In this document: positions 2,803 to 62,610 of the stretch, one piece after another
Layout of the letters: every line of letters begins with the position of its first letter
Position numbering within the stretch: position 1 is the stretch's first letter
Assembly: GCF_014642835.1 (NCBI RefSeq)
Contig: NZ_BMJA01000001.1
Location: 407,940 to 471,939, forward strand
Reading direction: 5' to 3'
Origin: Dyella nitratireducens
GTDB lineage: Bacteria; Pseudomonadota; Gammaproteobacteria; Xanthomonadales; Rhodanobacteraceae
DNA length: 64,000 bases
Notes under the pieces: model-generated
Database searches by the model: none
The model's input: the letters and a program-made list of their open reading frames with translations, nothing else
What the model was told of the DNA's origin: nothing
Made by a program: the position numbers and the translations under genes

Positions 2803-2861
2803 GCTGGGCAGTCCCACCTGCGAAGGGCTTCAAATGCGCGCCAAGACACTGTTTTCACAAG

Positions 2862-2879
2862 CTGTCATAGGCTCGTAAC
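2862..2879 (+). promoter_or_regulatory. Putative PHO box upstream of phoB
   Basis: CTGTCAT, four bases, then TCGTAAC resembles the 7-4-7 direct-repeat PhoB site; the second half has two mismatches to CTGTAAC. It lies about 50 bases before the phoB start, which fits autoregulation. Inference from pattern only. Confidence 0.5.
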
Positions 2880-2929
2880 ATTGCACCGCTGCAATATTTG
2901 CGTCATAGGCCACCCCTCCGGACCTGAGC

Positions 2930-3619
2930 GTGCACAAACGCATCCTGATTGTTGAAGACGAAGCCTCCATCCGCGACATGGTCGCCTTCGCCCTGCGCAA
3001 GGCCGGCATGGATACCGCACAAGCGGCCGATGCACGCACGGCACAAATGTCCATCGCCGAACAGGTGCCGGATCTGATCCTGCTCGACTGGATGCTGCCC
3101 GGCACCAGCGGCCTGGACCTGGCCCGCCGCCTGCGCAAGGAAGAACTCAGTCGCGAGATCCCGATCATCATGCTCACCGCGCGCGGCGAGGAAATGGATC
3201 GTGTGAATGGCCTGGAAGCTGGCGTGGACGACTATGTCGTCAAACCCTTCTCCACCCGCGAGCTGATCGCCCGCATCAAGGCCGTGCTGCGGCGCAGCCA
3301 GGGCGACGACGGTTCGGGCATGGTGGAACTTGGCCGCCTGCGCATCGATGGTCCGGCGCACCGCGTGTTCGCCGGTGACGAGCCGGTGCCGATCGGTCCC
3401 ACCGAATACCGCCTGCTGTATTTCTTCATGACCCATCCGGAACGCGTCTACTCTCGCGCGCAATTGCTCGACCATGTGTGGGGCGGCAGCGTGTATGTGG
3501 AAGAGCGCACGGTTGACGTGCATATCCGCCGCCTGCGCAAGACACTCGAGCCGTGGAAGCTCGAGGACATGGTGCAAACGGTAAGAGGCGCCGGTTATCG
3601 TTTCTCGGCGAGCCCCTGA
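2930..3619 (+). CDS. phoB: Phosphate response regulator PhoB
   Basis: A 229-residue OmpR-type regulator. The receiver domain (1-120) has acceptor D53, T83 and K105; the winged-helix domain (about 130-227) ends with the [16 protein letters not shown] recognition region. It activates phosphate-starvation genes after phosphorylation by PhoR, encoded 12 bases downstream. The start is a GTG, the only start that gives the intact receiver N-terminus HKRILIVED. The order phoB-phoR-ppk-ppx ties phosphate sensing to polyphosphate turnover. Confidence 0.95.
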
Positions 3620-3631
3620 GGCAAAGCCCTG

Positions 3632-4921
3632 ATGAAAAACCTGGTCGAAAGCGCCTGGAAACTTCCCCTCGCGCTGGCCGGGGGGCTGGTCGTGGGCGCC
3701 TTCGGCGGCTGGCTGGCGGGTGGTCACGTGGCCACCGGTGTGGCGCTGGTCGCTATAGCAGAGATTGTCTTGCTGCTGACGCATTTGCGTCACATTCCTA
3801 AGCCCATCATGAGCTTACCCTCCGCCCCCCCGGTTGGTACTTCCGACCCCTCCCGGCATGACCGATTCATGATGCGCTCCCGACGCCTAGCCGCCAATCT
3901 GCATGATCTACGCCGTGCCGCAGGCAGCCTGCCGGACGCCATCGTGCTGCTCGACCAGGAGCAGCACGTGCGGTGGTTCAACCATGCCGCCGAAAGCCTG
4001 CTCGGCCTGCGCCGCCCGCAAGATCGTGGCGTGGTGCTGAAGGAACGCCTGCATAACTCCGAACTGGCTGGCTGGCTGGAAGAACCCTCGCCTGAGCCGC
4101 TCAACGACGTCAGCGCACCGGGCGCACCCAGCCGCCACATCAACGTGACCTTGCTGCCGTTCGGCGCACGCCAACGCTTGCTGCTGGCGCGCGACATCAG
4201 TCACATGTCGCGGCTGGAACAGATTCGCCGCGATTTCGTGGCCAACGTGTCGCATGAATTGCGCACGCCGCTCACCGTGATTCACGGCTATCTGGAACTG
4301 CTCGATCCAGAAGACGTACCGCACCTGGCGCCCGTGCTCAACGAGATGCGCGCGCAATCCAAGCGCATGGGCCAGATCGTGGAAGACCTGCTCACGCTGT
4401 CGCGCCTGGAAACGCAGGATCACGTCAGCGAAGAACGCGTGCCGATGGCACCGCTGCTTGCCACGCTGCGCAAGGAAGCCGAAGCGCTAAGCCAAGGACG
4501 CCACAGCATTACCGTGGAAAACATGGCGAACATCGACCTGCTCGGTTCGCCGAAAGATCTGCACAGCGCGTTGTCCAATCTGGTCAGCAACGCAGTGCGC
4601 TATACGCCCACCGGCGGGCGCATCACCATTCGCTGGGAACGCACGGCGGAAGGTGCCAACTATTCGGTCACCGACACCGGCTACGGCATTCCTGCCGATC
4701 ACCTGTCACGCCTTACCGAACGCTTCTACCGCGTCTCCTCCAGTCGTTCGCGCGACAGCGGCGGCACGGGCCTGGGACTTTCCATCGTCAAGCACGTGCT
4801 TGGCTTGCATCAGGCGCGTCTGGATATCCGCAGCACGCCGGGCCAGGGTTCCACCTTTACGTGCTGCTTTGGCCGTGAGCGGTTGATGGGGCCGGAAACG
4901 CAGGAGTCCCGGCCGGAGTGA
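3632..4921 (+). CDS. phoR: Phosphate regulon sensor kinase PhoR
   Basis: A 429-residue membrane histidine kinase. Two hydrophobic segments lie at about 13-31 and 33-50, followed by a PAS domain (about 95-190), the HisKA box with phospho-acceptor H208 (VSHELRTPL), and a HATPase domain with N, G1 and G2 motifs (NLVSNAVRYTP, DTGYGIP, GGTGLGLSI). Length and layout match PhoR, which autophosphorylates when phosphate is low and passes phosphate to PhoB. It is cotranscribed with phoB. Confidence 0.94.
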   Translation: MKNLVESAWKLPLALAGGLVVGAFGGWLAGGHVATGVALVAIAEIVLLLTHLRHIPKPIMSLPSAPPVGTSDPSRHDRFMMRSRRLAANLHDLRRAAGSLPDAIVLLDQEQHVRWFNHAAESLLGLRRPQDRGVVLKERLHNSELAGWLEEPSPEPLNDVSAPGAPSRHINVTLLPFGARQRLLLARDISHMSRLEQIRRDFVANVSHELRTPLTVIHGYLELLDPEDVPHLAPVLNEMRAQSKRMGQIVEDLLTLSRLETQDHVSEERVPMAPLLATLRKEAEALSQGRHSITVENMANIDLLGSPKDLHSALSNLVSNAVRYTPTGGRITIRWERTAEGANYSVTDTGYGIPADHLSRLTERFYRVSSSRSRDSGGTGLGLSIVKHVLGLHQARLDIRSTPGQGSTFTCCFGRERLMGPETQESRPE

Positions 4922-5005
4922 ACAGGCTGGGTCCGCATCGCATTACAAAACGTTGAACAGCTTCTTACAAACACATAGGCGCAACACCGGCTCCTGAGTA
5001 AGAAT

Positions 5006-7162
5006 GTGTGGATGCCGCGTCGCCAAGCCACCCAATCCGCTATTGTCGAAACGCCCCAGCCCGAGCTGTTCCTGAGCCGTGAGCTGGCCACGCTTGAGTT
5101 CAATTTCCGAGTGCTGGCGCAAGCGCGCGACACCCGCATTCCGCTGCTGGAACGCCTGCGCTATCTCAGCATCGTGGCCAACAACCTCGATGAATTCTTC
5201 GAAGTGCGCGTGGCAATGCTCAAGCATCACCACCAGTTCGGTTCGGCCGCACCCGGTCCTGACGGCATCCCTTCCGGCGATCTGCTGGCACGCATCCGCG
5301 AACGCGTGCTCGATCTGGTCAGCGCGCAATACACCACCTGGCAGGACGAACTCGGCCCGGCACTGGCTGCCGAGAACATCCACTTCCTCACGCGCTCGCA
5401 GTGGACGCCGCGCCAGCGCCGCTGGTTGCACGGCTACTTTGAAAACGAAGTGCTGCCGGTGTTGTCGCCGCTGGGACTCGATCCCGCGCATCCATTCCCG
5501 CGCATCCTCAACAAGACCTTGAACATCGCGGTGGTGCTGCAAGGCCGTGACGCCTTCGGTCACGAAGGCCACATGGCGCTGGTGCGCGCACCGCGTTCGC
5601 TGCCACGCATCATCCGCATTCCCAACGAGGTATGCGGCCCCGGCGATCACTACGTGTTCCTGGCCGAGTTGCTGCAAGCCTTCGTCGACATGATGTTCCC
5701 CGGCTTCAAGGTCGCCGGCTCCTATCAATTCCGCGTCACCCGCAACAGCGAGCTGATCGTGGAAGAGGAAGAAGTCGAGAACCTCGCCCGCGCCCTGGCG
5801 GAAGAGCTGCACGGCCGCGGCTATGCGCGTCCGGTACGGCTGGAGATCGGCGTCGATTGCCCGCAGTCGATCGTGTCGATGTTGATCAACAACTTCCAGC
5901 TCGAAGAAAGCGACGTCTATCGTTGCAACGGCCCGGTCAACATCATCCGCGCCGGGCTGGTCTACGACGAACTTGATCATCCCGCGCTGAAATTTCCACG
6001 CTTCACCTCAGCCTTGCCCGCAGCGCTGAGCGGTGGACGGAATATCTTCGACGTACTCAACCAGCGCGACATCCTGCTGCATCATCCCTACGAATCTTTC
6101 AACGCCGTGGTCGATCTGCTGCGCGAAGCCGTGCAGGATCCGGACGTGCTCGCCATCAAGCAGACGCTGTACCGCGCCGGCAAGGACACCCCGCTGGTGG
6201 ACTTGCTTATCGAGGCTGCACGCAGCGGCAAGGACGTCACCGTGGTGATCGAACTGCGCGCGCGGTTCGATGAAGAAGCCAACATCCGCTTCGCCACACT
6301 TCTGCAGGAAGCCGGCGTGCAGGTGGTGTACGGCGTGGTGGGCTTCAAGACGCACGCCAAGATGATGCTGATCGTGCGGCGCGAGAATGGCCACCTGCGT
6401 CGCTACGTGCACCTTTCCACCGGCAACTACCATCAAGCCAACAGCCGTCTCTACACCGACATCGGCCTGATGACGGCCAATCCGGAGTTCGGCGAAGACC
6501 TGCACAAGATTTTCCAGCAGCTCTCGGGCCTTGGGCCGATGATCAACCTCAAGCGCCTGCTGCACTCGCCGTTCACGCTGTACAAGAACGTGGTGGAGAA
6601 GATCGAACGGGAGACCGCGCACGCACGCAACGGCAAGCCAGCGCGGATCGTCGCCAAGCTCAACGCGATGAACGAGTCGCATGTGATCGAAGCGCTCTAC
6701 ACCGCAGCGCAGGCGGGCGTGGAGATCGACCTGATCGTGCGCGGCGCCTGCACGCTACGCCCGGGCTTGCCCGGCATTTCCGAACGCATCCGCGTGCGCT
6801 CGATCGTGGGGCGCTTCCTTGAACACAGCCGCGTGTACTGGTTCGCCAACGATGGCAAACCAGAGCTTTACTGCGCCAGCGCGGACTGGATGGAACGAAA
6901 CCTGATACGACGCATCGAAGTAGCCTTCCCCATTCTCGATCCGCAGCTCGCAACGCGCGTGTATGAGGAAACGCTGGCCAATTACCTGGCAGACAACACG
7001 GACGCCTGGTTGCTGGACAGCGGCGGCCAATACACGCGCGCCACACCCGGTGAGGACAAGCCGCATTCGGCGCAAGAAGCCTTGTTGGAGAAGCTGTGCA
7101 GTGCGTCGGTAATCACGCCTGCTCGCTCCCCCATTGCGTCAACGCTCCGGACCGGCCAGTAG
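5006..7162 (+). CDS. ppk: Polyphosphate kinase 1
   Basis: An approximately 718-residue PPK1, which reversibly makes polyphosphate from ATP. N-terminal, head and two phospholipase-D-like C-terminal domains can be followed; the histidine of GFKTHAKMML and the motif HLSTGNYH belong to the catalytic region. Start is GTG at 5006 or ATG two codons later. In the 84-base gap after phoR, TTACAAA occurs at 4943 and again at 4965, two 11-base steps apart, so PhoB control is possible but unproven. The TAG stop is made by the first bases of the family B repeat that follows. Confidence 0.95.
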   Translation: MWMPRRQATQSAIVETPQPELFLSRELATLEFNFRVLAQARDTRIPLLERLRYLSIVANNLDEFFEVRVAMLKHHHQFGSAAPGPDGIPSGDLLARIRERVLDLVSAQYTTWQDELGPALAAENIHFLTRSQWTPRQRRWLHGYFENEVLPVLSPLGLDPAHPFPRILNKTLNIAVVLQGRDAFGHEGHMALVRAPRSLPRIIRIPNEVCGPGDHYVFLAELLQAFVDMMFPGFKVAGSYQFRVTRNSELIVEEEEVENLARALAEELHGRGYARPVRLEIGVDCPQSIVSMLINNFQLEESDVYRCNGPVNIIRAGLVYDELDHPALKFPRFTSALPAALSGGRNIFDVLNQRDILLHHPYESFNAVVDLLREAVQDPDVLAIKQTLYRAGKDTPLVDLLIEAARSGKDVTVVIELRARFDEEANIRFATLLQEAGVQVVYGVVGFKTHAKMMLIVRRENGHLRRYVHLSTGNYHQANSRLYTDIGLMTANPEFGEDLHKIFQQLSGLGPMINLKRLLHSPFTLYKNVVEKIERETAHARNGKPARIVAKLNAMNESHVIEALYTAAQAGVEIDLIVRGACTLRPGLPGISERIRVRSIVGRFLEHSRVYWFANDGKPELYCASADWMERNLIRRIEVAFPILDPQLATRVYEETLANYLADNTDAWLLDSGGQYTRATPGEDKPHSAQEALLEKLCSASVITPARSPIASTLRTGQ

Positions 7163-7226
7163 GTTGGGGTGCAAACCCCAACATCGCCATGCCCATTCTT
7201 GCGTTGGGGTTTGCACCCCAACCTAC
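7159..7226. repeat. Family B palindromic repeat pair
   Basis: Starts GTAGGTTGGGGTGCAAACC and ends with the reverse complement, with a short spacer starting ACATCGCCATG. It fills the ppk-ppx gap, can form a long hairpin, and its first bases supply the ppk stop codon. Confidence 0.9.
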
Positions 7227-7294
7227 GAAACCTACAGGGTTGATGATGTTCGCATCCATGCGAGAATCCCCGGCAGTTCGAACAGGAGTCCCGC

Positions 7295-8812
7295 GTGAGC
7301 CTCGGTGACCAGATGCAGATCAAGGATGGCGAGCTCATGGCCGCCGTCGACATCGGCTCAAACAGTTTTCACATGGTCGTCGCGCGCATGGAGCATGGCG
7401 AACCGCGGGTGATCGACCGCCTGCGCGAAACGGTGCGCATGGCCGCCGGCCTGCGTGCCGATGGCACCCTGGATGCCGAGCATCGCGCCCGTGCCCTCAA
7501 TTGCCTGGCCCGCTTCGGTCAGCGCATTGCCGGCATTCCCACCGCCCGTGTACGCGCGGTGGCCACGAATACAGTGCGCCGCCTCGCTTCGCCACAAGCC
7601 TTCCTCACCGCCGCAGAAGCCGCGCTCGGACATCCGGTGGAAGTGGTATCCGGCCGCGAGGAAGGCCGTCTGATCTTCCTGGGCGTGTCGCATGACCTGC
7701 CCACTTCGCGCGATCCCCGCCTGGTCATCGACATCGGCGGTGGCAGTACCGAATTCATCATCGGCCGCGGCCTCGCCCCGCTGCACACTGAAAGCGTGCA
7801 GGTAGGCTGCATTGCCACCACGCAACGGTTTTTCCCCGGCGGCAAGCTCACACGCAAGCGCTGGCAACGGGCGCGCGGTGAAATCGGTGTCTTGCTGCAA
7901 CAGTTCTCGGAGGAGTACCTGGAAGCCGGCTGGATCGACGCCTTCGGCTCTTCCGGCAGCGCCAAGGCGATCGGCGCCGTGGTGCAAGCCATGAAGTTTT
8001 CCGATCACGGCGTGACTCCCACATCACTGGCCATGTTGCGCGATGCGCTGCTTGAACAGGGACAGATCAGCGCACTGAAGCTGCCGGGCCTGTCCGACGA
8101 TCGCGCGCCGGTGTTTACCGGTGCCGTGGTGATTTTCGAAGCAGCGTTCGCCGCGCTCGGCATCGAACGTCTGCAAGTATGCGAAAGCTCGATGCGCGAA
8201 GGCCTGCTATGGGATCTGATCGGCCGCGCCGGCGGCACCGATCCACGTACGTCCAGCATTGATGCGCTGGCCAACCGTTATGCCGTGGATCGCGCGCAAG
8301 CGCGCCGCGTGGAATCCACGGCGCTGATGCTGTTCGACCAGGCGGCTCCGAACTGGAAGCTGGATGGCGAAGCGCGCGAGTGGCTGTCATGGATCGCGCG
8401 TGTGCATGAAATCGGCCTGGCGATCGCACACAGCCAGTATCACCAGCATGGTGCCTACATCCTGCGCAACGCCGACCTCGCCGGCTTCTCCAAGCAGGAA
8501 CAGCATCTACTCGCCACCATCGTGCAAGCGCATCGGCGCAAGCCGGACAAGACCAGCTTCTCCGCCCTGCCGCAGCGCTACCGCCAGCTCGCCCGCTACA
8601 TCACCGCCCTGCTGCGCCTGGCTGTGCTATTCCGCCGTGCACGCCGCCCCGAATCGCTGCCACCGTTGCGCCTCTCGGCCAGCGCCCAGCGCCTGGGACT
8701 GAGCCTGCCGGCAACGTGGCTGGAACAGCATCCGCTCACGCAGGCGGACCTGGAGCAGGAAATCACGCCCATGGCCGAGCTGGGTCTGGCGTTGTCGATC
8801 GGCACCGAATGA
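7295..8812 (+). CDS. ppx: Exopolyphosphatase (Ppx/GppA family)
   Basis: A 505-residue member of the ASKHA phosphotransferase fold. AAVDIGSNSFHMVVA near residue 17 and DIGGGSTEFIIG near 145 are the phosphate-binding motifs; the C-terminal HD-like region contains VHEIGLAIAHSQYHQHG. It removes phosphate from polyphosphate ends, opposing Ppk upstream. GTG at 7295 follows AGGAG with correct spacing. Length is close to the usual 500-513 residues. Confidence 0.93.
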   Translation: MSLGDQMQIKDGELMAAVDIGSNSFHMVVARMEHGEPRVIDRLRETVRMAAGLRADGTLDAEHRARALNCLARFGQRIAGIPTARVRAVATNTVRRLASPQAFLTAAEAALGHPVEVVSGREEGRLIFLGVSHDLPTSRDPRLVIDIGGGSTEFIIGRGLAPLHTESVQVGCIATTQRFFPGGKLTRKRWQRARGEIGVLLQQFSEEYLEAGWIDAFGSSGSAKAIGAVVQAMKFSDHGVTPTSLAMLRDALLEQGQISALKLPGLSDDRAPVFTGAVVIFEAAFAALGIERLQVCESSMREGLLWDLIGRAGGTDPRTSSIDALANRYAVDRAQARRVESTALMLFDQAAPNWKLDGEAREWLSWIARVHEIGLAIAHSQYHQHGAYILRNADLAGFSKQEQHLLATIVQAHRRKPDKTSFSALPQRYRQLARYITALLRLAVLFRRARRPESLPPLRLSASAQRLGLSLPATWLEQHPLTQADLEQEITPMAELGLALSIGTE

Positions 8813-52945: not shown

Positions 52946-52986
52946 AGTGTATGGGTATGAAGTCATGGGCTAGCCGGGCGCTGCGT

Positions 52987-53060
52987 TTTGGGCACAACAC
53001 CAATGTATGTACCGGTTTCACATGCTTTGGTGTTCGCTGACATGTACAAACATTGGTGTT
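52987..53060. repeat. Left end of the island: terminal repeat and subterminal motifs
   Basis: The terminal repeat is 52987-53015. Motif copies: minus strand at 52996-53013 (GGTACATACATTGGTGTT), plus strand at 53019-53034 (CACATGCTTTGGTGTT) and 53043-53060 (TGTACAAACATTGGTGTT). Between here and the helicase gene, 53176-53191 is a perfect palindrome (ATGCGT-CAGA-ACGCAT), a possible operator; otherwise no gene is seen in 52891-53227. Confidence 0.7.
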
Positions 53061-53227
53061 AAGAAGGGCGCTGACCAGGGCCTGGGGACAACCGTTTTCG
53101 AATCTGAACAGATATCAGGCAATATATCGGCGGCCATTGGCCTAAAAACCAAGGACTTGCCCGCGGACGGGGGCAATGCGTCAGAACGCATAGAAGCCAC
53201 TACGGATAGAACATAGGGAGGAGAAAC

Positions 53228-56140
53228 ATGCCGCGACTTACCGACGTAAATGAGTTAATCCAGTCGGAGGGATTGACGCAAGCGCAGGCTGATGCGGTGG
53301 TTGACGATGCCCAGGCAATCCTGTGCATAGCGTGCGCCGGATCGGGAAAATCCCAGACGCTTGCCTATCGAATCGCTCGGCTAATGTCCCAGGGAGTGCC
53401 GGCGGCCTCCATTGTTGCCATTACCTTTACAGAGAAAGCTGCAGATGCGATCAAGCGCAGGATCGCATCCGTACTAGAACGCACGGGTCAAAGTTCGAAC
53501 CTAATCGGGCAGATGTTCATCGGTACCATCCATGCCTTTTGCCAAAATGTTCTTGCGGACGGCGATGCCTTATTCCGACAATACGATGTACTCGATGGGA
53601 ATCGTTTTACGCTGTATCTCATGTCGCGGTACTACGAACTCGGTATAGCTGACCTGAGGCCGCGATTTAATAATCGCTACTTTGAAACATTGGATCAGGT
53701 CCGCAACGCTTGGAATATTTTCCGAGACGAAGGTCTGTCGCTTGAGGACATTGAAGCGAGGGACGAGTCGATTGGAAGGACAGTACGCGCAATACGCGAT
53801 GGACTGCTACGCGACCAGTTTATTGACTTCGCCTCAATGATCCGAGAAACAGCTGACCGCGCAACCAATGCAGGTCGCGTGAGGGATCGGCTAGCAGCTA
53901 TACAGCATTTGCTAGTTGATGAATATCAGGATGTTTCCGGCGCACAGGAAGAGCTCGTCGCTATCGTTTATGCTCTAGGGGGAAACATCTTCGTCGTTGG
54001 TGACGATGACCAGTCAATTTACGGATGGCGTGGAGCACATGTAGCTAACATCTTGGAATTCGAACAGCGCTATCCCAACGTCCACAAACATGTACTGGCA
54101 ACGAATTTTCGGAGCACTCGTGCAATAGTCTCCGTGTCTAACGATTTCGTGACAACACAACTGGGACCGCAACGACTACCCAAGCAACCTCGTGAAAACT
54201 GGAATGCGGCACCTCGCCAACTTGTCGCGCACCATTTCGAGACACGAGCCGAAGAAGCCGGGTGGGTGGCCGACCGAATCGTTACCCTATTGGGCACCGA
54301 GTATCGTAAAAGTGCAGGTACCACCGCACGCGGCTTAACGCCAGCCGACTTTGCCATTCTTATGCGCTCCACAAAGTCACAGGAGCAAGACGGTAATCCT
54401 CGACACGCGGCGTTCTCGGACGCGTTGAGGACACGAGGAATTGAATTCACGCTGGCCGCAGGCGGAAGCGTATTCGATCAACCTGCTGTGAACGCGTTAC
54501 GTGAGGTGTTCATCGCGCTTGAGCAAGGGCCCATTGATCGCAACCAGGCCAATCAGCTCATTGCTGATCATATTCGACCAGCCTATCCACAAATAAACGT
54601 ACGGCGCACCTATGAAGTACTCGCTGACTGGGGAAGAAGAATTCACCAACCGCTAGGGGCGGTGCGACAGCGCTTGTTTCCGCAAGCACTTCTAGTTGAT
54701 CTGCTTGAAGCGTTCAACATCCGAGGATCCGATTTTTCGGAAACCGTTATGAGGGATATAGGTCTATTCAGCAAGATGCTGCAGGACGTCGAATCGGTAT
54801 ATCTCAGTATCGACTCCACAGATCGATTTCGCTCCGTTGTCCGATTCCTGCAACAGGTGGCGGAAGGCGGATATGACGTAAGCACCGAAGATATCGTCAC
54901 TCGGCCTAATGCGGTGACAATTTCAACGGTCCATCAGGTCAAAGGGCTTGAGTTCCCTGTCGTATTCGTGGTCGACGTAGTTCCAGGGCGATTTCCTGGC
55001 AATCAGCGACGCTTCGATTGTGCGCTGCCTCAGGACTTGCTAGCCGCAGCAATTGCAAGGGGAGCTTACGCAAGCGACCGTTCCGCAGAAGCAAGACTTT
55101 TCTATACCGCGCTAACTCGGGCGGAACGTTTCCTTCATGTAACCGGAGCAGCATTACTACCGAATGGTCGTCGGACCAATCGTCAATCGCCATTTGCTGC
55201 AGCGCTTCAGGACGAGGAGCTATGTTCCGATCCTGCAATCATTCCAGAAGGTCTCGTTCCAGCCCCACAACAACAAGAGCTGGACGAAGCTACGCTCCCT
55301 ACTTCATTTAGTGACATTAAATACTATCTAAACTGTCCTATGGACTACCGATTCCGCAAGAGCTTCGGTTTTAGCCCGCCCGTGCCGGAATTGTTCGGAT
55401 ATGGACGGGTAGTCCACGTAGCGATCGAAAAACTACACGAACTTTTCCCTGACCGCGCACCAACACGGCAAGAAGCTCAAGCAATTGCTCAAGAAAACTT
55501 CCATCTCAAACACGTGGCACAAAGTCGTGACCCTCAAAATCGTCCGGGCGCGTATGAGCGAGCCAAAGAAAAAGCACAGCAGATTGCGGAAGATTATGTA
55601 GCCAGCTATGCGGCTGACTTTACCCACCAGCGTCAGGTGGAGGTGCGATTCGAGATTCCCGCGCGTGGATGCCTTATCACCGGCTCAATCGATCTATTGA
55701 TGAGATGTAATGAAGCAGGTGACATCCTTGAGGCCCATGTCCTTGATTTCAAGACTATGGAAGGTGGCGCGGATCCTCAACAAAACAGAGACCTGGACTG
55801 GCGGGAGCTATCACTCCAAGTGCAGCTATACGCAAAAGCCGCCCGTGATGTTCTTGGTGAAAATGCCGCAACCGGCTCAATTCACTTATTGAAAGACAAT
55901 CAGCGCGTGCAAATTCCTATTGATGAAGCTTCTGTCAACGCGGCCATTGGCAACATCGAATGGGCCGTCCAAGGCATTCTCGAACAAGACTTCCCTATGC
56001 GACCGACACCCAATAAGTGTCGTGATTGCGACTTTCAGCGGCTATGCCCTCAACAGCAACAACAGTTTCGCGCTGATGCTGGCCTTCCTCCGCGCATTGC
56101 CACCCCCGCCGGCCCAGTGTTCGCGCGAGCTATCGAATGA
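53228..56140 (+). CDS. UvrD-like helicase with AddB-type iron-sulfur nuclease domain
   Basis: A 970-residue superfamily 1 helicase. Walker A is GSGKS at 38-42, motif II LLVDEYQD, motif III VGDDDQSIYGWRGAH, motif V HQVKGLEFPVVFV, motif VI YTALTRAE. The C-terminal 270 residues form a RecB/AddB-like PD-(D/E)XK nuclease: the active-site run GSIDLL ... VLDFKTME and cysteines C703, C931, C934, C940, the C-x2-C-x5-C spacing of AddB's 4Fe-4S cluster. It should unwind and cut DNA. AGGGAGGAG precedes the ATG. It lies 83 bases before the OLD-type ATPase, recalling Gabija but with an added nuclease. Confidence 0.88.
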   Translation: MPRLTDVNELIQSEGLTQAQADAVVDDAQAILCIACAGSGKSQTLAYRIARLMSQGVPAASIVAITFTEKAADAIKRRIASVLERTGQSSNLIGQMFIGTIHAFCQNVLADGDALFRQYDVLDGNRFTLYLMSRYYELGIADLRPRFNNRYFETLDQVRNAWNIFRDEGLSLEDIEARDESIGRTVRAIRDGLLRDQFIDFASMIRETADRATNAGRVRDRLAAIQHLLVDEYQDVSGAQEELVAIVYALGGNIFVVGDDDQSIYGWRGAHVANILEFEQRYPNVHKHVLATNFRSTRAIVSVSNDFVTTQLGPQRLPKQPRENWNAAPRQLVAHHFETRAEEAGWVADRIVTLLGTEYRKSAGTTARGLTPADFAILMRSTKSQEQDGNPRHAAFSDALRTRGIEFTLAAGGSVFDQPAVNALREVFIALEQGPIDRNQANQLIADHIRPAYPQINVRRTYEVLADWGRRIHQPLGAVRQRLFPQALLVDLLEAFNIRGSDFSETVMRDIGLFSKMLQDVESVYLSIDSTDRFRSVVRFLQQVAEGGYDVSTEDIVTRPNAVTISTVHQVKGLEFPVVFVVDVVPGRFPGNQRRFDCALPQDLLAAAIARGAYASDRSAEARLFYTALTRAERFLHVTGAALLPNGRRTNRQSPFAAALQDEELCSDPAIIPEGLVPAPQQQELDEATLPTSFSDIKYYLNCPMDYRFRKSFGFSPPVPELFGYGRVVHVAIEKLHELFPDRAPTRQEAQAIAQENFHLKHVAQSRDPQNRPGAYERAKEKAQQIAEDYVASYAADFTHQRQVEVRFEIPARGCLITGSIDLLMRCNEAGDILEAHVLDFKTMEGGADPQQNRDLDWRELSLQVQLYAKAARDVLGENAATGSIHLLKDNQRVQIPIDEASVNAAIGNIEWAVQGILEQDFPMRPTPNKCRDCDFQRLCPQQQQQFRADAGLPPRIATPAGPVFARAIE

Positions 56141-56222
56141 ATCAACCCGTCTAAACATAGGCCTCACTCGTCGCTGAAAATTAGCTTTGGTATATGGCGG
56201 ATTGATATAAAGGCGAAGGAAG

Positions 56223-58091
56223 ATGATCGATCTAAAGAAGGAAATTGAAGAGCTAGAGGCCCTTCGAGGTAAGTATCACATTGTATTTCCAGCGTACATC
56301 ACTCATATAAGGTTCCCCCGCTACAAGAATATGGCGTCAGGTGCGCGTATCGATTTTGATTTCCCCATAACGGCACTTGTAGGTGCAAACGGATCAGGCA
56401 AGACCTCTGTACTAAATGCACTCTACGGTGCACCAAAGCGACAATCGACCGGCGAATACTGGTTTAGTACGAAAGTTGACCCTATCGAAGAGGGTGAAGG
56501 TAGCCCTAATCGGTTCATTTACGGCCATTACAGCGCTGGCTTTAAGAAAGTTGTCGAGACGCGCAAAGCGCGTGTGCGAAAATTTCGCAACGGCCGTGAT
56601 GACCCAAACTATTGGGAACCAACTAAAGAGTCACCTGGTGACGGAATGGTTGTACCGTCCCTTGAACCTGGCAAGAACATCCAGGGACGCAGCCTAGATC
56701 GGTGGAATCCTGTGACGCGGAAAGTGCTTTATATCAACTTCCGTAAGGAGTTGAGTGCGTTCGACAAGTACTTCTATTTTGGCAAGAACCCTGCGATAGA
56801 AGCGGCAAGAGCAACAGCAGCGGCAAAGAAGGCGGGCAAGGTTGCCTCGGGACGTCGAATCCTAACCAAGATGGATCAGGTTCGCCTCGACGCCGGCTTG
56901 CTAGCTCGAGTCATTGCATCGGGCAATACATCCGAAAAATCTCATAACAGAAAGATCGCAACGGAGAACAGATTATTAGCGCCGGACGAACTTAAGGTAG
57001 TTAGCTTCATCCTCGGGCGGGATTACATTGAGGCTCGCTGGATTCGCCACCGCCTGTTTAAAGGCGATGGCGGCATCAGCATCGTCTTCAAAACTGAGTA
57101 CGGACGTTACAGTGAAGCCTTTGCTGGCAGCGGCGAGGTTGCTGTAGCAAGTTGCGTCGTACAGGTGCTAAATGAAAAGAAAAAAGGCACCCTCCTTCTT
57201 CTGGACGAACCTGAAGTCTCACTTCATCCTGGCGCCCAGGAACGTTTACTCGCATTTCTTGCTCAGACCGCCAAGCGCAAACAAATGCAAATCGTATTTT
57301 CAACACATTCGCCACATCTCATCTCAGCGCTACCGAACGACGCCATTAAGACATTCCACCAGCTTCAAGATGGAGCATTTTCGATCATCTCTTCGACACA
57401 CCCATACGCAGCATTTCGGCGATTGGGGGCCACTCACGGCGGCAAAGTGCTCGTGATAGTTGAAGATAGACTAGCCAAGCTCGTCGTTCAGCAGGCGCTA
57501 GCCTTGATCGAAGATGAAGCGACCAGACAACTTTTCCGCGTGGAATTTGTCAGCGGAGGAGCTAGCTCAATACTGAATACGCGAATTCCCGTTTTTATGG
57601 AGAGTTCGGAACACATTTTCGTGTTGCTGGACGGCGACCAGAAAAAAATCGATCAGATTCAGGACCCGGATGAGATACCTGAAGCGCAAAACAATCAGCT
57701 AGGGCAGAAGATCTCAGCGCAGATAGGAGCCAACCCAGAGCTGAACATAGACGGCGGATCCGGCGGCGGAAACCATGAGCAAAGGATAGCCAGCCAGCGC
57801 AAGTATCTTGCCTGGGTTAGGCGATGTCTCAACTACATACCTACTAGCTGTCCAGAGGAGCTTGTGCTACTCGCCGCCGGCAAAATGCTAGCCGACCAGG
57901 TGGGGAATGCGCCAAAATGCAAGGTGCGCCTACAAGCCGTTGCTACAGAGGCATTGGGCCGAGAAGCAGGTAGCGAGGAAACCGACAGATATGGCGAGTT
58001 CTTATTGGCGACGAACAGAGCAAAGTCGAAGGAACTAGCAGTCCTCACCTTACAGCTTACGGCATTTCTGGCAGCAATAAGGGCTCAGTAA
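56223..58091 (+). CDS. OLD-type ATPase with TOPRIM nuclease domain (GajA-like)
   Basis: A 622-residue protein. An ABC-type AAA ATPase with Walker A GANGSGKT (54-61), a long insertion, signature-like AFAGSGEVAVAS, Walker B LLLLDEPEVSLHPGAQ and switch His STHSPHLI. A TOPRIM-like domain follows (VIVEDRLAKLVVQ with the glutamate, then FVLLDGDQKK). This is the plan of OLD-family nucleases and of GajA of Gabija defence. With a UvrD-like helicase just upstream it may form a Gabija-like complex, though gene order is reversed. GAAGGAAG precedes the ATG. Confidence 0.83.
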   Translation: MIDLKKEIEELEALRGKYHIVFPAYITHIRFPRYKNMASGARIDFDFPITALVGANGSGKTSVLNALYGAPKRQSTGEYWFSTKVDPIEEGEGSPNRFIYGHYSAGFKKVVETRKARVRKFRNGRDDPNYWEPTKESPGDGMVVPSLEPGKNIQGRSLDRWNPVTRKVLYINFRKELSAFDKYFYFGKNPAIEAARATAAAKKAGKVASGRRILTKMDQVRLDAGLLARVIASGNTSEKSHNRKIATENRLLAPDELKVVSFILGRDYIEARWIRHRLFKGDGGISIVFKTEYGRYSEAFAGSGEVAVASCVVQVLNEKKKGTLLLLDEPEVSLHPGAQERLLAFLAQTAKRKQMQIVFSTHSPHLISALPNDAIKTFHQLQDGAFSIISSTHPYAAFRRLGATHGGKVLVIVEDRLAKLVVQQALALIEDEATRQLFRVEFVSGGASSILNTRIPVFMESSEHIFVLLDGDQKKIDQIQDPDEIPEAQNNQLGQKISAQIGANPELNIDGGSGGGNHEQRIASQRKYLAWVRRCLNYIPTSCPEELVLLAAGKMLADQVGNAPKCKVRLQAVATEALGREAGSEETDRYGEFLLATNRAKSKELAVLTLQLTAFLAAIRAQ

Positions 58092-58146
58092 AACGCGTAA
58101 AAGACATAACCCTACCTCCCATATAATCGACTAGATAACGTCAGTC

Positions 58147-59208
58147 ATGGCCGGCCACAAGAACGCAAAAACAAGCCATCGGGAACTTACTGCAGTCGAC
58201 CTGTTCAGCGGCTGCGGCGGCCTAAGTTGTGGCCTCATCAAGGCCGGCTTCAGCGTGGCCGCCGCTGTTGAGATCGACCGGAAAGCACAAGCCACCTACA
58301 GGCTCAATCACCCCGGCGTCCACTTATATGAGCAGGATATTCGTTCATTGGATCCGGCTCAGGTTCTTAGGGACGCCGGTCTAAAGCCAGGTGAATTGGA
58401 CTTGCTGGCAGGCTGCCCGCCTTGCCAGGGTTTCTCACGTTTAAGAACAAAGAATCAAAAAACTTCTGTAAAGGACGATCGCAACAATCTTGTGGCGGAT
58501 TTCCTTCGCTTCGTACGCGTGATGATGCCCAAGACCATCATGCTCGAGAACGTACCGGCCCTAGCAAAAGATGGCCGGTTCACAAAGATGCGCAATCAAC
58601 TTAGCCAACTAGGCTATGAAGCCGTCGTGCATGTTCTGGATGCAGCGGATTACCGAGTCCCCCAAAGACGCAAGCGGCTCATCATGTTAGCGTCCAGAGT
58701 CCACAAGCCCGAAATTGCTCCAAAAGCTTCCGCCAAGATCACTGTGCGACAAGCCTTGAAGGGCGTAGGCGCTCCCTCCCGAACAAAAGATAAGTTGCAT
58801 GCGGTATCAGAGAATCGCACTTCGGCGGTTCGTGAGTTGATCGCACTAATCCCAAAGGACGGCGGTAGTCGCTCAGACTTGGGCCAAGAATTCCAGCTCG
58901 ATTGCCATAAGAGAAGTTCGGGCTTTCGTGATGTGTATGGCCGCATGTCCTGGGATGATGTGGCACCGACAATTACAAGCGGTTGCCACAATCCTTCAAA
59001 GGGGCGTTTTTTACATCCCTCGTACAACCGGACTATTACCCTTCGTGAAGCAGCATTACTTCAGGGTTTCCCTAAAAAATATCGTTTTGATGTCTCACAT
59101 GGCAAGGAAGCTATCGCGCTGATGATCGGCAATGCCTTACCTCCGCCGTTCATTTCTGCACATGCAGGAGCACTACGAGATGGCCTACTAGCGTCTAGTC
59201 GAAACTAG
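58147..59208 (+). CDS. DNA cytosine-5 methyltransferase
   Basis: A 353-residue C5 methyltransferase. Motif I DLFSGCGGLSCG (18-29), motif IV GCPPCQGFS with catalytic C93, motif VI ENVP (134-137), motif VIII QRRKRLI, and motif X MIGNALPPP near the C-terminus. It methylates cytosine at an unknown target; the recognition region is about residues 190-280. It lies 55 bases after the ATPase gene and in front of vsr, so its marks may protect self DNA from the helicase/ATPase module (inference). Confidence 0.92.
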   Translation: MAGHKNAKTSHRELTAVDLFSGCGGLSCGLIKAGFSVAAAVEIDRKAQATYRLNHPGVHLYEQDIRSLDPAQVLRDAGLKPGELDLLAGCPPCQGFSRLRTKNQKTSVKDDRNNLVADFLRFVRVMMPKTIMLENVPALAKDGRFTKMRNQLSQLGYEAVVHVLDAADYRVPQRRKRLIMLASRVHKPEIAPKASAKITVRQALKGVGAPSRTKDKLHAVSENRTSAVRELIALIPKDGGSRSDLGQEFQLDCHKRSSGFRDVYGRMSWDDVAPTITSGCHNPSKGRFLHPSYNRTITLREAALLQGFPKKYRFDVSHGKEAIALMIGNALPPPFISAHAGALRDGLLASSRN

Positions 59209-59322
59209 AGACGAGAGACCGGCCGATTTATTTATGGCTCAGCCAACGTATTCTCAGACCCACGCCAGTTTCACGTCGATCATCTTATCGCGAGTACTTT
59301 TACTTTTGAGTGGAATTGTTCA

Positions 59323-59736
59323 GTGGACAAAGTGCCAGCCGAACAACGCAGACGCAACATGGCTGCCGTACGCTCTCGCGATACGAAGCCCGAGCGAATA
59401 GTGCGCAGCGCTCTGCATTCCCTAGGGCTACGGTTTCGTTTGCACCAGGCCTCGTTACCCGGAACTCCCGATATCGTATTGAGGAGATACCGCACCGTTA
59501 TCTTGGTACACGGATGCTTCTGGCACGGGCACAAATGTCGCAGGGGGCAACCGCCGAAAACACGCACGCAGTTCTGGTTACCAAAATTAGAACGAAATCG
59601 CGTGCGCGATCGAAGGCAGGTGAAAGAACTCAAATCGCTAGGTTGGCGCGTACTTATAATCTGGGAATGCGAATCTAAAAACGAAGCGAGATTAGCGATC
59701 CGACTGGCACGATGGTTCGGGGTGCGGCAGAACTAA
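59323..59736 (+). CDS. vsr: Very short patch repair endonuclease Vsr
   Basis: A 137-residue Vsr: SRDTKPE near the start, catalytic aspartate D50 in LPGTPDIV, then HGCFWHGHKC (H63, C65, H68, H70, C72) and a last cysteine in IWECES for the zinc site. Vsr nicks T:G mismatches made by deamination of 5-methylcytosine, so it is the normal partner of the methyltransferase before it. The GTG start at 59323 gives the full family N-terminus; a GAGTGGAA sequence precedes it. Confidence 0.92.
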   Translation: MDKVPAEQRRRNMAAVRSRDTKPERIVRSALHSLGLRFRLHQASLPGTPDIVLRRYRTVILVHGCFWHGHKCRRGQPPKTRTQFWLPKLERNRVRDRRQVKELKSLGWRVLIIWECESKNEARLAIRLARWFGVRQN

Positions 59737-60003
59737 TCACACCGAACACCTTTTATACGTCATAAAGCCCGTAAGAAAATGTCACGCCACGCAACTTGCG
59801 CTCATCCAAGACCCAAAATAGCCAAGCCTTGAGGCCCCCTTTATGTGCTAAAGGGACTTCGCAGCGGCTTGTAAGCTCTATTGAATGCACCACGATCAAT
59901 GCGTTACATGGATAGGCTTGTCTATGCAGTTCAACTTCATCTGCGGTCAGGAGGATCGATACAAGACCACTGGTCGTGACCTTGATCTCTCAACTTGTGT
60001 CGA

Positions 60004-60031
60004 AAAAAAGCACGCCAATGTGTGCTCTTTT
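60004..60031. terminator. Possible terminator between vsr and the small gene
   Basis: AAAAAGCAC and GTGCTCTTTTT form a short stem with T-run, in the otherwise empty gap 59737-60071. Weak. Confidence 0.4.
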
Positions 60032-60071
60032 TCATTTCAACAACGCCAACTTCAGGCAAGTTGCTAGGCGC

Positions 60072-60299
60072 TTAACGCTTCTTATCAGCCAACTCAATTT
60101 CTTCCGCTGTTAACTGATTTCGATGCAAGTATGCGCCGCCAGGGCTCCTCGGAACCCCGATGAGAGTTCCCCTATTTCCGGCGCCCACCAGCCCTATAAC
60201 TTCGTCATCATCATTCACGGCGAACGCCGCGACGTTCCACACAACATCACCAAACTTGTAGTACCAATCACCAGCTGGAATTAGCTGCTTGTAAGCCAT
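60072..60299 (-). CDS. Small protein of unknown function
   Basis: A 75-residue protein starting MAYKQLIPAGDWYYKFGD, without signal or membrane segment, with a charged C-terminus (AEEIELADKKR). The ATG at 60297-60299 is preceded by GAAGGTG at good distance, which argues that it is real. Not recognised; it is on the opposite strand to the other island genes, and an antitoxin or inhibitor role is only speculation. Confidence 0.55.
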   Translation of the reverse strand: MAYKQLIPAGDWYYKFGDVVWNVAAFAVNDDDEVIGLVGAGNRGTLIGVPRSPGGAYLHRNQLTAEEIELADKKR

Positions 60300-60547
60300 A
60301 AAAAACACCTTCTAGCCTAGAGGACTAAAGTCCATCGGCACACATCCAAAAAACTTTAGCCCCCCCCTTTACCCACCAACTGACTAATCTCCCGAAGACT
60401 TTATTCGACACCGGCGTGTGTGGATAATCTTCCGAAATCACCGCTCTCTTCAATCTGCGACAGAACGTAAAAATGTTAGCCGGCTAGATTCACGCTAGTC
60501 GTAATGAACGGCGTATCTCGCCCCCATGACACGATAGGCCTTAACAC

Positions 60548-61411
60548 ATGCTCGACCTAATTCACTCATCTATCACTGTGTACTCAAGGATACGGGATAC
60601 CTTCACTGAATCCATCGAAGCCTGCAGATTAACAGACCCCTTGTTCGCACAATTTTCTGGCTCGCAGATGCATTATTACTCCTCCAGGTGCCAGTCGATG
60701 AACCTGCTGCTGCAGGAGTGGAAGCTTTGGGATTGTGACATTTTGATGCGATCCGCCCTTGAGTGTGCAACGCGCTTCCTCTTCGTCGCCGTCGCCAATA
60801 ACCCCGAACGTAGCCAGCGAATCGAGGAGTACACAACCTCCCTAAATGAGATCGAAGATATTCTTCGCTCTGAAAAAGCCAAGACAGCAGCAGTGAATGC
60901 TGACGACGATCATGACGCAATGCTCCTCGGAGGCGCGGCTCTTAGTCCTGACAAAGAGGCCGAACTTCGTTCCAAATGGCCCCAATCCAAGCGGAAAGCA
61001 CTGAAGCAAAAATGGTCATTCTCCGAGATCGTTCGTGTGCTTGAGAGAGTCAATTATCCGACTCTTAACCTTACCAAGTATGGCTCGTTATTGCACAGTT
61101 ACGGCCTCAGTAGTCATCTAATTCACGCTGATCAGACAGCAATGAACTTGATGCGAGACAGAGCTACCCGCACCGCCGAAGAGCGACGTTTACTTGAGCA
61201 AGCCCACTTCGCCCGCCTTGCAGTTGAGCCAACGACTCTTCTCTTTATCTGTTGGCGTGCGATGGAGCATGCGATCGAAAGCACCACGAAGCACATATCA
61301 CTAGTAGAAGCGATGTTCGAATTGCTCGAGGAGGGTCGCCAATATCACGAGGAATTTGCGATTTCGCAAATGCACCTATATGAGGGCGTCACACCAACCA
61401 ATCCTCCTTAA
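60548..61411 (+). CDS. Protein of unknown function, DUF5677-like
   Basis: A 287-residue mainly helical protein. The layout (helical N-terminus, conserved WDCDILMRSALECATRFLF block, central KWPQSKRKALKQKW, and LLHSYGLSSHLIHAD) resembles DUF5677-type proteins found in defence and mobile regions. No enzymatic motif is clear. The gap 60300-60547 before it shows no gene. Its codon use is AT-rich like the rest of the island. Confidence 0.65.
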   Translation: MLDLIHSSITVYSRIRDTFTESIEACRLTDPLFAQFSGSQMHYYSSRCQSMNLLLQEWKLWDCDILMRSALECATRFLFVAVANNPERSQRIEEYTTSLNEIEDILRSEKAKTAAVNADDDHDAMLLGGAALSPDKEAELRSKWPQSKRKALKQKWSFSEIVRVLERVNYPTLNLTKYGSLLHSYGLSSHLIHADQTAMNLMRDRATRTAEERRLLEQAHFARLAVEPTTLLFICWRAMEHAIESTTKHISLVEAMFELLEEGRQYHEEFAISQMHLYEGVTPTNPP

Positions 61412-61540
61412 TTAGGCCCGAGTTCTCTACTCGTCGACTTTTCAACGGAATCCGTAAAGTGAACGACCCTCCATCCGCGCACCGGAGCAGCGTAGTGCAC
61501 GACAAACTACTGCTCCATATCGACATCCTCGGATTTTCAG

Positions 61541-61930
61541 GTGTTGTGGATCAAAACCCCTATCTGGGCCGTCGTACTGCGCATTGTGACGCAGCCAATT
61601 TCAGTTCGTAGCAAGGAGCTGCCGTTGAAAGACATCGAGACAATATCCGCTCAAACCAGGATTTTTGTGAATTCAAGGGTTAGAAAGATGGTGGCAACAC
61701 TGAGCGATAATCGCCGTTCATTCCCAGATTGTGACCAAGCACTATTGCTAGACGGAACAACATTTATTGGGGAGGTGGCCTCTATTGAAGCGTTAAGTGC
61801 TCATGACCCCAGGTACAATAATCAGACGGACTCATCTTCGCTGAGTGGTGCAGAAAATTTCCTCCTTCTCTGTCCAAACCATCACCGCATGATAGATCCG
61901 GGGCCTCACACGCTCAATAGCAGCGCTTAG
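61541..61930 (+). pseudogene. HNH endonuclease-like gene, probably frameshifted
   Basis: The 129-residue product has an HNH core of the type GEVASIEALSAHDPRYNNQ and FLLLCPNHHRMID, but ends 12 residues later (PGPHTLNSSA). Family members continue with a helix like SIAALRR. The other frame just past 61913 reads SIAALRRVMSK, so a one-base shift near 61905-61913 probably broke the gene. A long N-terminal extension before the HNH core has no recognisable domain. Confidence 0.55.
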
Positions 61931-62039
61931 GCGCGTAATGTCGAAGTCCATGCTCATTCGTCAGGCTTGCGCTTATTTGGCTGACTTTGGTTCGTATCCA
62001 AAGAAAGAAGCAGCTGAACTCCTGCGGAGCTTCGTTTTG

Positions 62040-62153
62040 TGGGCATGGTGGGATTCGAACCCACACTATCACTATGGATAAGGACCTTCCTAAGTCGCCT
62101 GGAAACCAAGCGACTTAGCTAAGGCCCCGCGTCTACCATTCCGCCACATGCCC
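62040..62153 (-). tRNA. tRNA-Leu-like gene with 29-nt hairpin in the anticodon loop
   Basis: Class II tRNA: acceptor GGGCATG/CATGCCC with A73, D arm GCGGAATGGTAGACGC, variable-arm stem TATC/GATA, T arm GTGGG-TTCGAAT-CCCAC. The anticodon stem GGGCC/GGTCC encloses a 36-nt loop instead of 7. Within it, plus-strand 62090-62118 is a 29-base hairpin (CTAAGTCGC ... GCGACTTAG, TGG/CCA inner stem). Removing it leaves a 7-nt loop TTAGGAA. Discriminator and D loop point to leucine, but the restored anticodon would read AGG. CCA is not encoded (ACA follows). Own promoter upstream. Confidence 0.75.
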
Positions 62154-62161
62154 AAGGTTCG

Positions 62162-62191
62162 AATATTGCACGCAATCGCTGAAATTGTCAA
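62162..62191 (-). promoter_or_regulatory. Promoter of the tRNA-like gene
   Basis: On the minus strand a perfect TTGACA (62186-62191) lies 18 bases before AATATT (62162-62167); the tRNA 5' end follows 8 bases later, so the transcript would have almost no leader. Confidence 0.65.
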
Positions 62192-62430
62192 GCAAGTCAT
62201 TAATTTTGTTATATTTTTTATAAAATATGCGGCTTTTAGCGAAGCCAAAATAGATGATTGGCGCGCAGGCACTGTTTTGACGCACTCACTTTACGTGTAC
62301 CCACCATTTTTCCCAACATGTACGAAGCTTGTCTGCTTGCAAATAACTTCGCCAATTCCGCCTTCACAACCTTCAGATCTGCCGGCTAGAGACCGTGCCG
62401 TGGAAATTCTTGCGAGATGACATTCGCCCC

Positions 62431-62610
62431 GGTACACACTTTAGTTGTCAAATGGCTTCCGAAGACTCAAATCCAAGCTTTCTAACCAATTGTTTTACCT
62501 ATTCATGTACGTACTTTGCCGTCTGATGGTAAGCAAAGTGCGTACATAAGGCTCTTGATTACACATACTTTGGTTATCAAACCTGCACACACTTTGGTGT
62601 CATGCCCACA
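62431..62610. repeat. Right end of the island: terminal repeat and subterminal motifs
   Basis: Motif copies: 62431 (GGTACACACTTTAGTTG), 62506 (TGTACGTACTTTGCC), minus strand 62533-62546 (TGTACGCACTTTGC), 62561 (ACACATACTTTGGTT), and the terminal repeat 62582-62610 (CCTGCACACACTTTGGTGTC on the plus strand). The 62154-62642 stretch holds only these, the tRNA promoter and no gene. Confidence 0.7.

Follow-up and report, generated by a model that had tools for sequence, protein, structure and literature searches.

A 64,000-nucleotide (nt) stretch of the Dyella nitratireducens genome (contig NZ_BMJA01000001.1), the whole of which is referred to here as the window, carries four close, co-directional genes whose products are a UvrD-PDDEXK helicase-nuclease (HEL), an OLD-type ATPase/TOPRIM protein (ATP), a C5-methyltransferase (MT) and a Vsr endonuclease (Vsr). 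This gene set had been proposed in an original prediction made from the sequence alone, and the open reading frames (ORFs), their coordinates, the + strand and the family profiles were all confirmed (Table 1). The four genes, arranged HEL-ATP-MT-Vsr with intergenic gaps of 82, 55 and 114 nt, respectively, are real and intact, chance being ruled out for such long family-matching ORFs. Comparison with related loci, designated below by L or G numbers, supports the view that the locus is a methylation-linked, defence-like module, and reveals that its conserved unit is ATP together with MT, with HEL and Vsr as accessories.

Specifically, HEL matches the Pfam families UvrD-helicase (169 bits), UvrD_C (81 bits) and PDDEXK_1 (PF12705, 82 bits), and its residues C703, C931, C934, C940, H730, D822, D840, K842, Q864 and Y868 are identical in one close relative (L046); these conserved cysteines and accompanying residues we take to be AddB/Cas4-type Fe-S and nuclease motifs. 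ATP, which matches AAA_21/AAA_15 in Pfam and whose model matches TsOLD 6p74, has the composition of an OLD-family nuclease, namely an ABC-type ATPase with Walker A/B and signature motifs followed by a TOPRIM domain with conserved acidic residues (E414, D415, D470 and D472 in the window). MT scores 204 bits with Pfam DNA_methylase and 165.8 bits with TIGR00675 (above the cut-off of 100.65), and Vsr scores 110 bits with Pfam Vsr and 166.6 bits with NCBIfam TIGR00632 (above the cut-off of 97.85).

Table 1. Genes of the module and the island that carries them (positions in the window; aa, amino acids; SF1, superfamily 1).
Feature	Position	Strand	Remarks
HEL: UvrD-type SF1 helicase fused to PD-(D/E)XK (Cas4/AddB-like) nuclease	53228..56140	+	970 aa; accessory component
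ATP: OLD-type ABC ATPase with C-terminal TOPRIM nuclease	56223..58091	+	622 aa; core component
MT: C5-cytosine DNA methyltransferase	58147..59208	+	353 aa; core component
Vsr: Vsr-type T:G mismatch endonuclease	59323..59736	+	137 aa, GTG start; accessory to MT
Low-GC island at variable chromosomal site	52970..62432		GC (guanine-cytosine) profile; other gene content between the same flanks in two congeneric genomes

Conservation of the ATP-MT pair

A pattern scan with the window ATP over a collection of 84,980 species, which reaches close relatives only, returned a single relative, a Rhodocyclales contig (L002) whose ATP and MT are 73% and 78% identical to those of the window and stand in the same order. 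Further loci came from profile searches of 398 genomes of the phylum and, later, 151 genomes of the order, and from two scans of viral contigs that gave 23 and 72 loci, all 23 contigs being among the 72. Membership of the ATP family was set at a score of at least 395 bits with a family profile (members 395-790 bits), a threshold reached by 61 of the 72 viral loci. The 90 loci counted include the window, three Escherichia coli stretches and 22 repeated contigs; since viral contigs of the first scan recurred in the second, they reduce to 68 distinct records, 61 from viral contigs and seven from other sources, and some of the 68 may share a strain of origin. The records are mostly viral because a viral collection was scanned. 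Full-length members form 42 clusters at 80% identity (47 at 95%, 28 at 60% and 18 at 45%).

Pairing with MT is near-constant within this family. A family MT occurs in 41 of the 42 clusters: in 38 it adjoins ATP, and in three (L025, L073 and L095) it stands at a distance of one or two ORFs. The count was made with a profile derived from 18 sequences, each with an MT close by, and lone ATP genes of different sequence would escape it. In the sole cluster lacking MT (L076), the contig ends inside ATP. ATP precedes MT in 26 clusters, follows it in five and is convergent with it in 10. All six full-length homologues from the genome collections (the window, L002, L010, L011, and L139 and L140 from the 151 genomes of the order) have MT as partner, adjacent in both L139 and L140 and accompanied there by neither HEL nor Vsr. 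The 398 phylum genomes contain two long ATP homologues with a C5-methyltransferase (G423 and G622), one pair convergent and the other overlapping in the order MT-ATP, as well as a partial ATP match without a C5-methyltransferase (G710). As a control, a family MT scoring above 60 bits was found in none of ten loci of weaker OLD-like proteins (35-150 bits), several of which are near-identical to one another; an eleventh locus (L109) gave no ATP ORF.

Over 40 representatives, the identities of ATP and of MT correlate (rho 0.415), with none of 2000 permutations as high. Walker A/B, SGE and H362 are present in all 42 ATP representatives and the TOPRIM residues in 41, the remaining ORF being truncated, and the PCQ, ENV and PQxRxR motifs are present in 41 of 41 family MT partners. 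That the pairing survives rearrangement and that the active sites are kept is strong evidence for a joint function of ATP and MT. This is a different partition from the one originally predicted, in which helicase and ATPase formed an attack pair set against a marking pair of methyltransferase and Vsr: the ATPase goes with MT in 41 of 42 clusters, whereas the helicase is present in three and Vsr in five, as counted within fetched flanks, where short contigs may conceal accessory genes.

The setting of the pair is that of mobile elements. The L018 cassette is matched in 18 of 5,426 complete E. coli genomes, eight times over the full cassette length at an identity of at least 99% and ten times over 39% of the cassette at ~71%. 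Three of these 18 loci were opened. The ATP-MT pair of L038 and L039 is flanked by antiterminator Q and holin and runs on the opposite strand; that of L040 is found between Q and a lysis region, an interval that also contains a small hypothetical gene and a further DNA methyltransferase. The two proteins are the same in L039 and L040, the prophages of which differ in their lysis genes. The E. coli records, which for the L038 type are WP_231256136.1 and WP_047645442.1, label the pair merely 'ATP-dependent nuclease' and 'DNA cytosine methyltransferase'. Elsewhere, in L073 (7764-13433), a HATPase/HEF_HK protein and a receiver-domain protein are encoded between ATP and its methyltransferase, and the locus looks as if one methyltransferase served two ATPase systems.

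HEL, Vsr and the chromosomal site

Co-occurrence of the four families elsewhere, a check put forward with the original prediction, was borne out: the four-gene set recurs on the prophage contig L046, with the genes rearranged, and in remote form in L043. The L046 genes run ATP-MT-HEL-Vsr on one strand, and their products are 38.6%, 78.7%, 67.8% and 64.4% identical, respectively, to those of the window. ATP is thus very different where MT, HEL and Vsr are close, and the ATP part is exchangeable. L043 combines an MT-ATP pair with divergently oriented genes for Vsr and for a UvrD-PDDEXK protein that shares 28.8% identity with HEL; an HsdR-type gene is close by. Vsr also occurs in the clusters of L002 and L022, in the latter adjoining another methyltransferase, which together with the window, L043 and L046 makes up the five.

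Both close HEL genes known here (window and L046) belong to the four-gene set, and other remote HEL relatives (L113 and L119) are accompanied by an N6/N4 methyltransferase and a ResIII-type protein, the ResIII match of L119 being just below the cut-off. Given these varied contexts, HEL seems to serve as an accessory to several systems linked to methylation. In L119 (4685-16657), the HEL-like UvrD protein stands in a row with the N6/N4 methyltransferase, the ResIII-type protein and a sacsin/NOV_C protein. L002 is without HEL and has a CARF6-STK-AAA gene in its place, Vsr being encoded on the opposite strand close to the end of the contig; the CARF6-STK-AAA protein (2182-5907; PADLOC PDLC01925, 1405 bits) is encoded directly upstream of the ATP-MT pair, and its gene is preceded by that of a 468-aa protein without Pfam match.

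The GC content of the four window genes is 50-53%, as against 58-63% in the left flank. Their site was compared in four congeneric genomes (L132, L133, L134 and L135). In two of these, L133 and L134, both window flanks are collinear and lie ~2.5 kb and ~3.2 kb apart, respectively, and because they enclose other genes the module is placed at a variable chromosomal site; in the other two, apart from a 99-base match, alignment was confined to the right flank (L132) or to most of it (L135). At the same site in L134, another Dyella species (5348-8303), there are a RES-domain gene and two others that match no Pfam family. In addition, the window island encodes a DUF5677 protein and contains a short ORF (60548-61930). 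The latter (61541-61930) matches only the start of the SduA profile and, weakly, HNH_2 (HNH-type), and is possibly a gene remnant. Near the right edge of the island, on the - strand, lies a tRNA-like gene (62040-62153; Rfam tRNA, 43.9 bits) in which 58 nt take the place of 17 in the model; it was not called by ARAGORN.

Comparison with described systems

The original prediction recognized no named system in this set of genes. For HEL, MT and Vsr this does not hold, as Hudaiberdiev et al. (2017, PMC5704561) described a UvrD-Cas4 fusion accompanied by Dcm and Vsr, and the window likewise has a UvrD helicase-PF12705 fusion (82 bits) near a C5-methyltransferase and Vsr, sharing with those loci the HEL architecture and its linkage. 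The other context reported there, type III Mod/Res, resembles L113 and L119 (PMC5704561). Unlike the window, the section describing the UvrD-Cas4/Dcm/Vsr loci names no OLD/TOPRIM partner, and the terms 'TOPRIM' and 'OLD family' are absent from the main text of that paper, figures aside (PMC5704561). For the pair of OLD protein and C5-methyltransferase, no description was found in searches of open-licence literature, a coverage outside which lies the 2020 ABC-ATPase survey of Krishnan et al., the likeliest place for such a description and one that may cover OLD ATPases with methylases. The HEL-Dcm-Vsr association is thus already known, and the OLD-C5-methyltransferase pairing is the apparent new part. 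A 2023 review distinguishes OLD classes that are single, part of Gabija, part of retrons and, possibly, part of PARIS, and the word 'methyltransferase' occurs 0 times in the available text of that review (PMC10568477).

Gabija (GajAB; OLD class 2), to which the locus had been likened, also has an OLD protein adjoining a UvrD-like helicase. The comparison stands as an analogy and fails by profile scores, which place the OLD protein of the module on a different branch. GajA was rejected as an identity for ATP: its models reach at most 68 bits (best stretch 317-381), as against 117 bits for HEC-04, the best stretch of which spans just residues 246-480. With the ATP-family profile, scores of 29 and 21 bits were obtained for the OLD proteins of two pairs considered Gabija-like on gene arrangement, not on a profile. 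GajB was likewise rejected for HEL: GajB is a nuclease-free, constant partner, whereas HEL has the PDDEXK_1 nuclease and is optional, absent within the fetched flanks from 39 of the 42 clusters, and it is the methyltransferase that is near-constant.

Other systems share individual traits. HEC-04, whose homologue is IbfA, is the best PADLOC match of ATP, combines ATPase and TOPRIM and has reported anti-phage activity, but is described as a single gene, whereas ATP is paired with MT (PMC12111858). Hma has helicase, m5C methyltransferase and ATPase functions in common with the module (PMC8565338), and none of the HmaA, HmaB and HmaC models is among the 25 best PADLOC matches of any protein. As for Druantia type II (DruM with DruE, DruF and DruG), the best PADLOC model for MT is DruM2 (298 bits), and DruE, DruF and DruG are absent from the 25 best PADLOC matches of the other five ORFs scanned. 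The MORC/paraMORC systems share an ATPase-driven logic resembling restriction-modification (RM), a cytosine methylase and Vsr, but employ a GHKL ATPase instead of OLD and SF2 helicases instead of the UvrD type (Iyer et al., 2008, PMC2292703). Similarly, the CxC-ABC-ATPase/DndE system couples an ABC ATPase to a cytosine methylase in a conflict system, but through a DndD/CxC clade and a DndE partner with no OLD ATPase-TOPRIM fusion (PMC10853773). Compared with a type II RM system, MT and Vsr are present, and the six ORFs scanned include just one more that is nuclease-like, the short HNH-type ORF of the island; ATP may be the substitute for the restriction enzyme.

Readings of the module

We read the locus as an RM-like anti-phage module with a core of MT and ATP and an OLD nuclease in the restriction enzyme's place, and put the probability of this reading at about one half. 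From the protein families we infer methylation-based discrimination between self and non-self, DNA as the target and a division of labour. MT would place 5-methylcytosine on its site in resident DNA and ATP would attack incoming DNA without this mark; in the window version HEL might then unwind and degrade DNA starting at breaks or nicks that ATP has introduced, in a RecBCD/AddAB-like manner, and Vsr would repair T:G mismatches arising from deaminated 5-methylcytosine, limiting mutation at methylated sites. More tentatively, the family may constitute a distinct OLD class besides the single, Gabija, retron and PARIS types, with an ATP-gated OLD/TOPRIM nuclease serving as the restriction arm in a C5-methylation system, carried mostly as prophage cargo and sometimes joined by UvrD-Cas4 and Vsr.

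Several observations weigh against an RM-like module. The OLD nucleases described so far are mostly sequence-non-specific (PMC10568477), and another OLD protein, PA1939 of Pseudomonas aeruginosa, which is not necessarily akin to ATP, worked independently of an N6-methyltransferase (PMC6945700). The correlation between ATP and MT identities is modest and broken in places, as in L046 (ATP 39% and MT 79% identical to the window); with ATP diverged and MT close, ATP need therefore not read the MT site. On the same contig (L112, 11357-12136), directly after Vsr, lies a gene for an HNH protein that matches DUF3427 weakly (below the cut-off) and could be the real, conventional restriction enzyme of L046. 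Additionally, a Pantoea methyltransferase related to MT (52%; L007) stands beside an ATPase that is unlike ATP and remotely like an annotated ParaMORC3 protein, and because this relative has a different ATPase as partner, MT is promiscuous. Finally, on a Rhodovastum plasmid another restriction locus encloses a short HEC-04-like ATPase gene in the vicinity of those for a methyltransferase and Vsr.

The near-constant pairing is explained equally well if ATP is an effector and MT its silencer. ATP would then be a suicidal OLD protein acting by abortive infection, restrained by MT or its mark; when a phage inhibits MT or unmarked DNA replicates, ATP would be released to cut DNA or RNA, and HEL and Vsr would be bystanders of the mobile island. 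In three prophage contigs (L034/L098, L035/L100 and L095) ATP is broken while MT remains open, and no complete ATP without MT was seen among the loci of the ATP family, a pattern that suits such a guarded toxin but is predicted by a restriction pair as well, so that the data do not separate the two. Consistent with a suicidal effector, the PARIS TOPRIM protein cuts tRNA (PMC12839542) and abortive infection has been attributed to the HEC-04 homologue IbfA (PMC12111858). The recurrence of HEL and Vsr with the pair in L046 and L043, however, argues against pure bystanders, and overall we consider this explanation rather unlikely. Less likely again is that the genes are independent neighbours sharing cargo sites, with MT (and Vsr) as an anti-restriction or orphan methyltransferase, ATP as an exclusion gene like Old of P2 and HEL as a separate defence gene. 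Such genes do gather at prophage cargo sites, the MT relative of L007 has another partner, and HEL relatives also lie beside type III-like genes (L113 and L119), but independence is difficult to reconcile with a pairing maintained in 41 of 42 clusters despite changes of order and strand, and found in six of six full-length homologues from genome collections as against none of ten other OLD-like matches. A divergent Gabija, whose helicase gained a nuclease and which recruited a methyltransferase, is suggested by the adjacency of OLD protein and helicase and by GajB being the best PADLOC model for HEL (172 bits). We regard it as very improbable: besides the closer match of ATP to HEC-04 than to GajA and the absence of HEL from most clusters, the ATP-family profile finds, among solved chains, class 1 OLD 6p74 at 9e-14 and PtuA at 9e-12, as against GajA at 5e-4.

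OLD nucleases are common in defence, and how they discriminate self from non-self is an unsettled question. An OLD protein tied to a C5-methyltransferase makes this question directly testable, by comparing cleavage on marked and unmarked DNA, and the ATP-MT pair is a defined one to seek in prophages. With this finding, the UvrD-Cas4/Dcm/Vsr loci reported in 2017 also gain a partner. If the module works as it looks, it would represent an unusual kind of restriction system.

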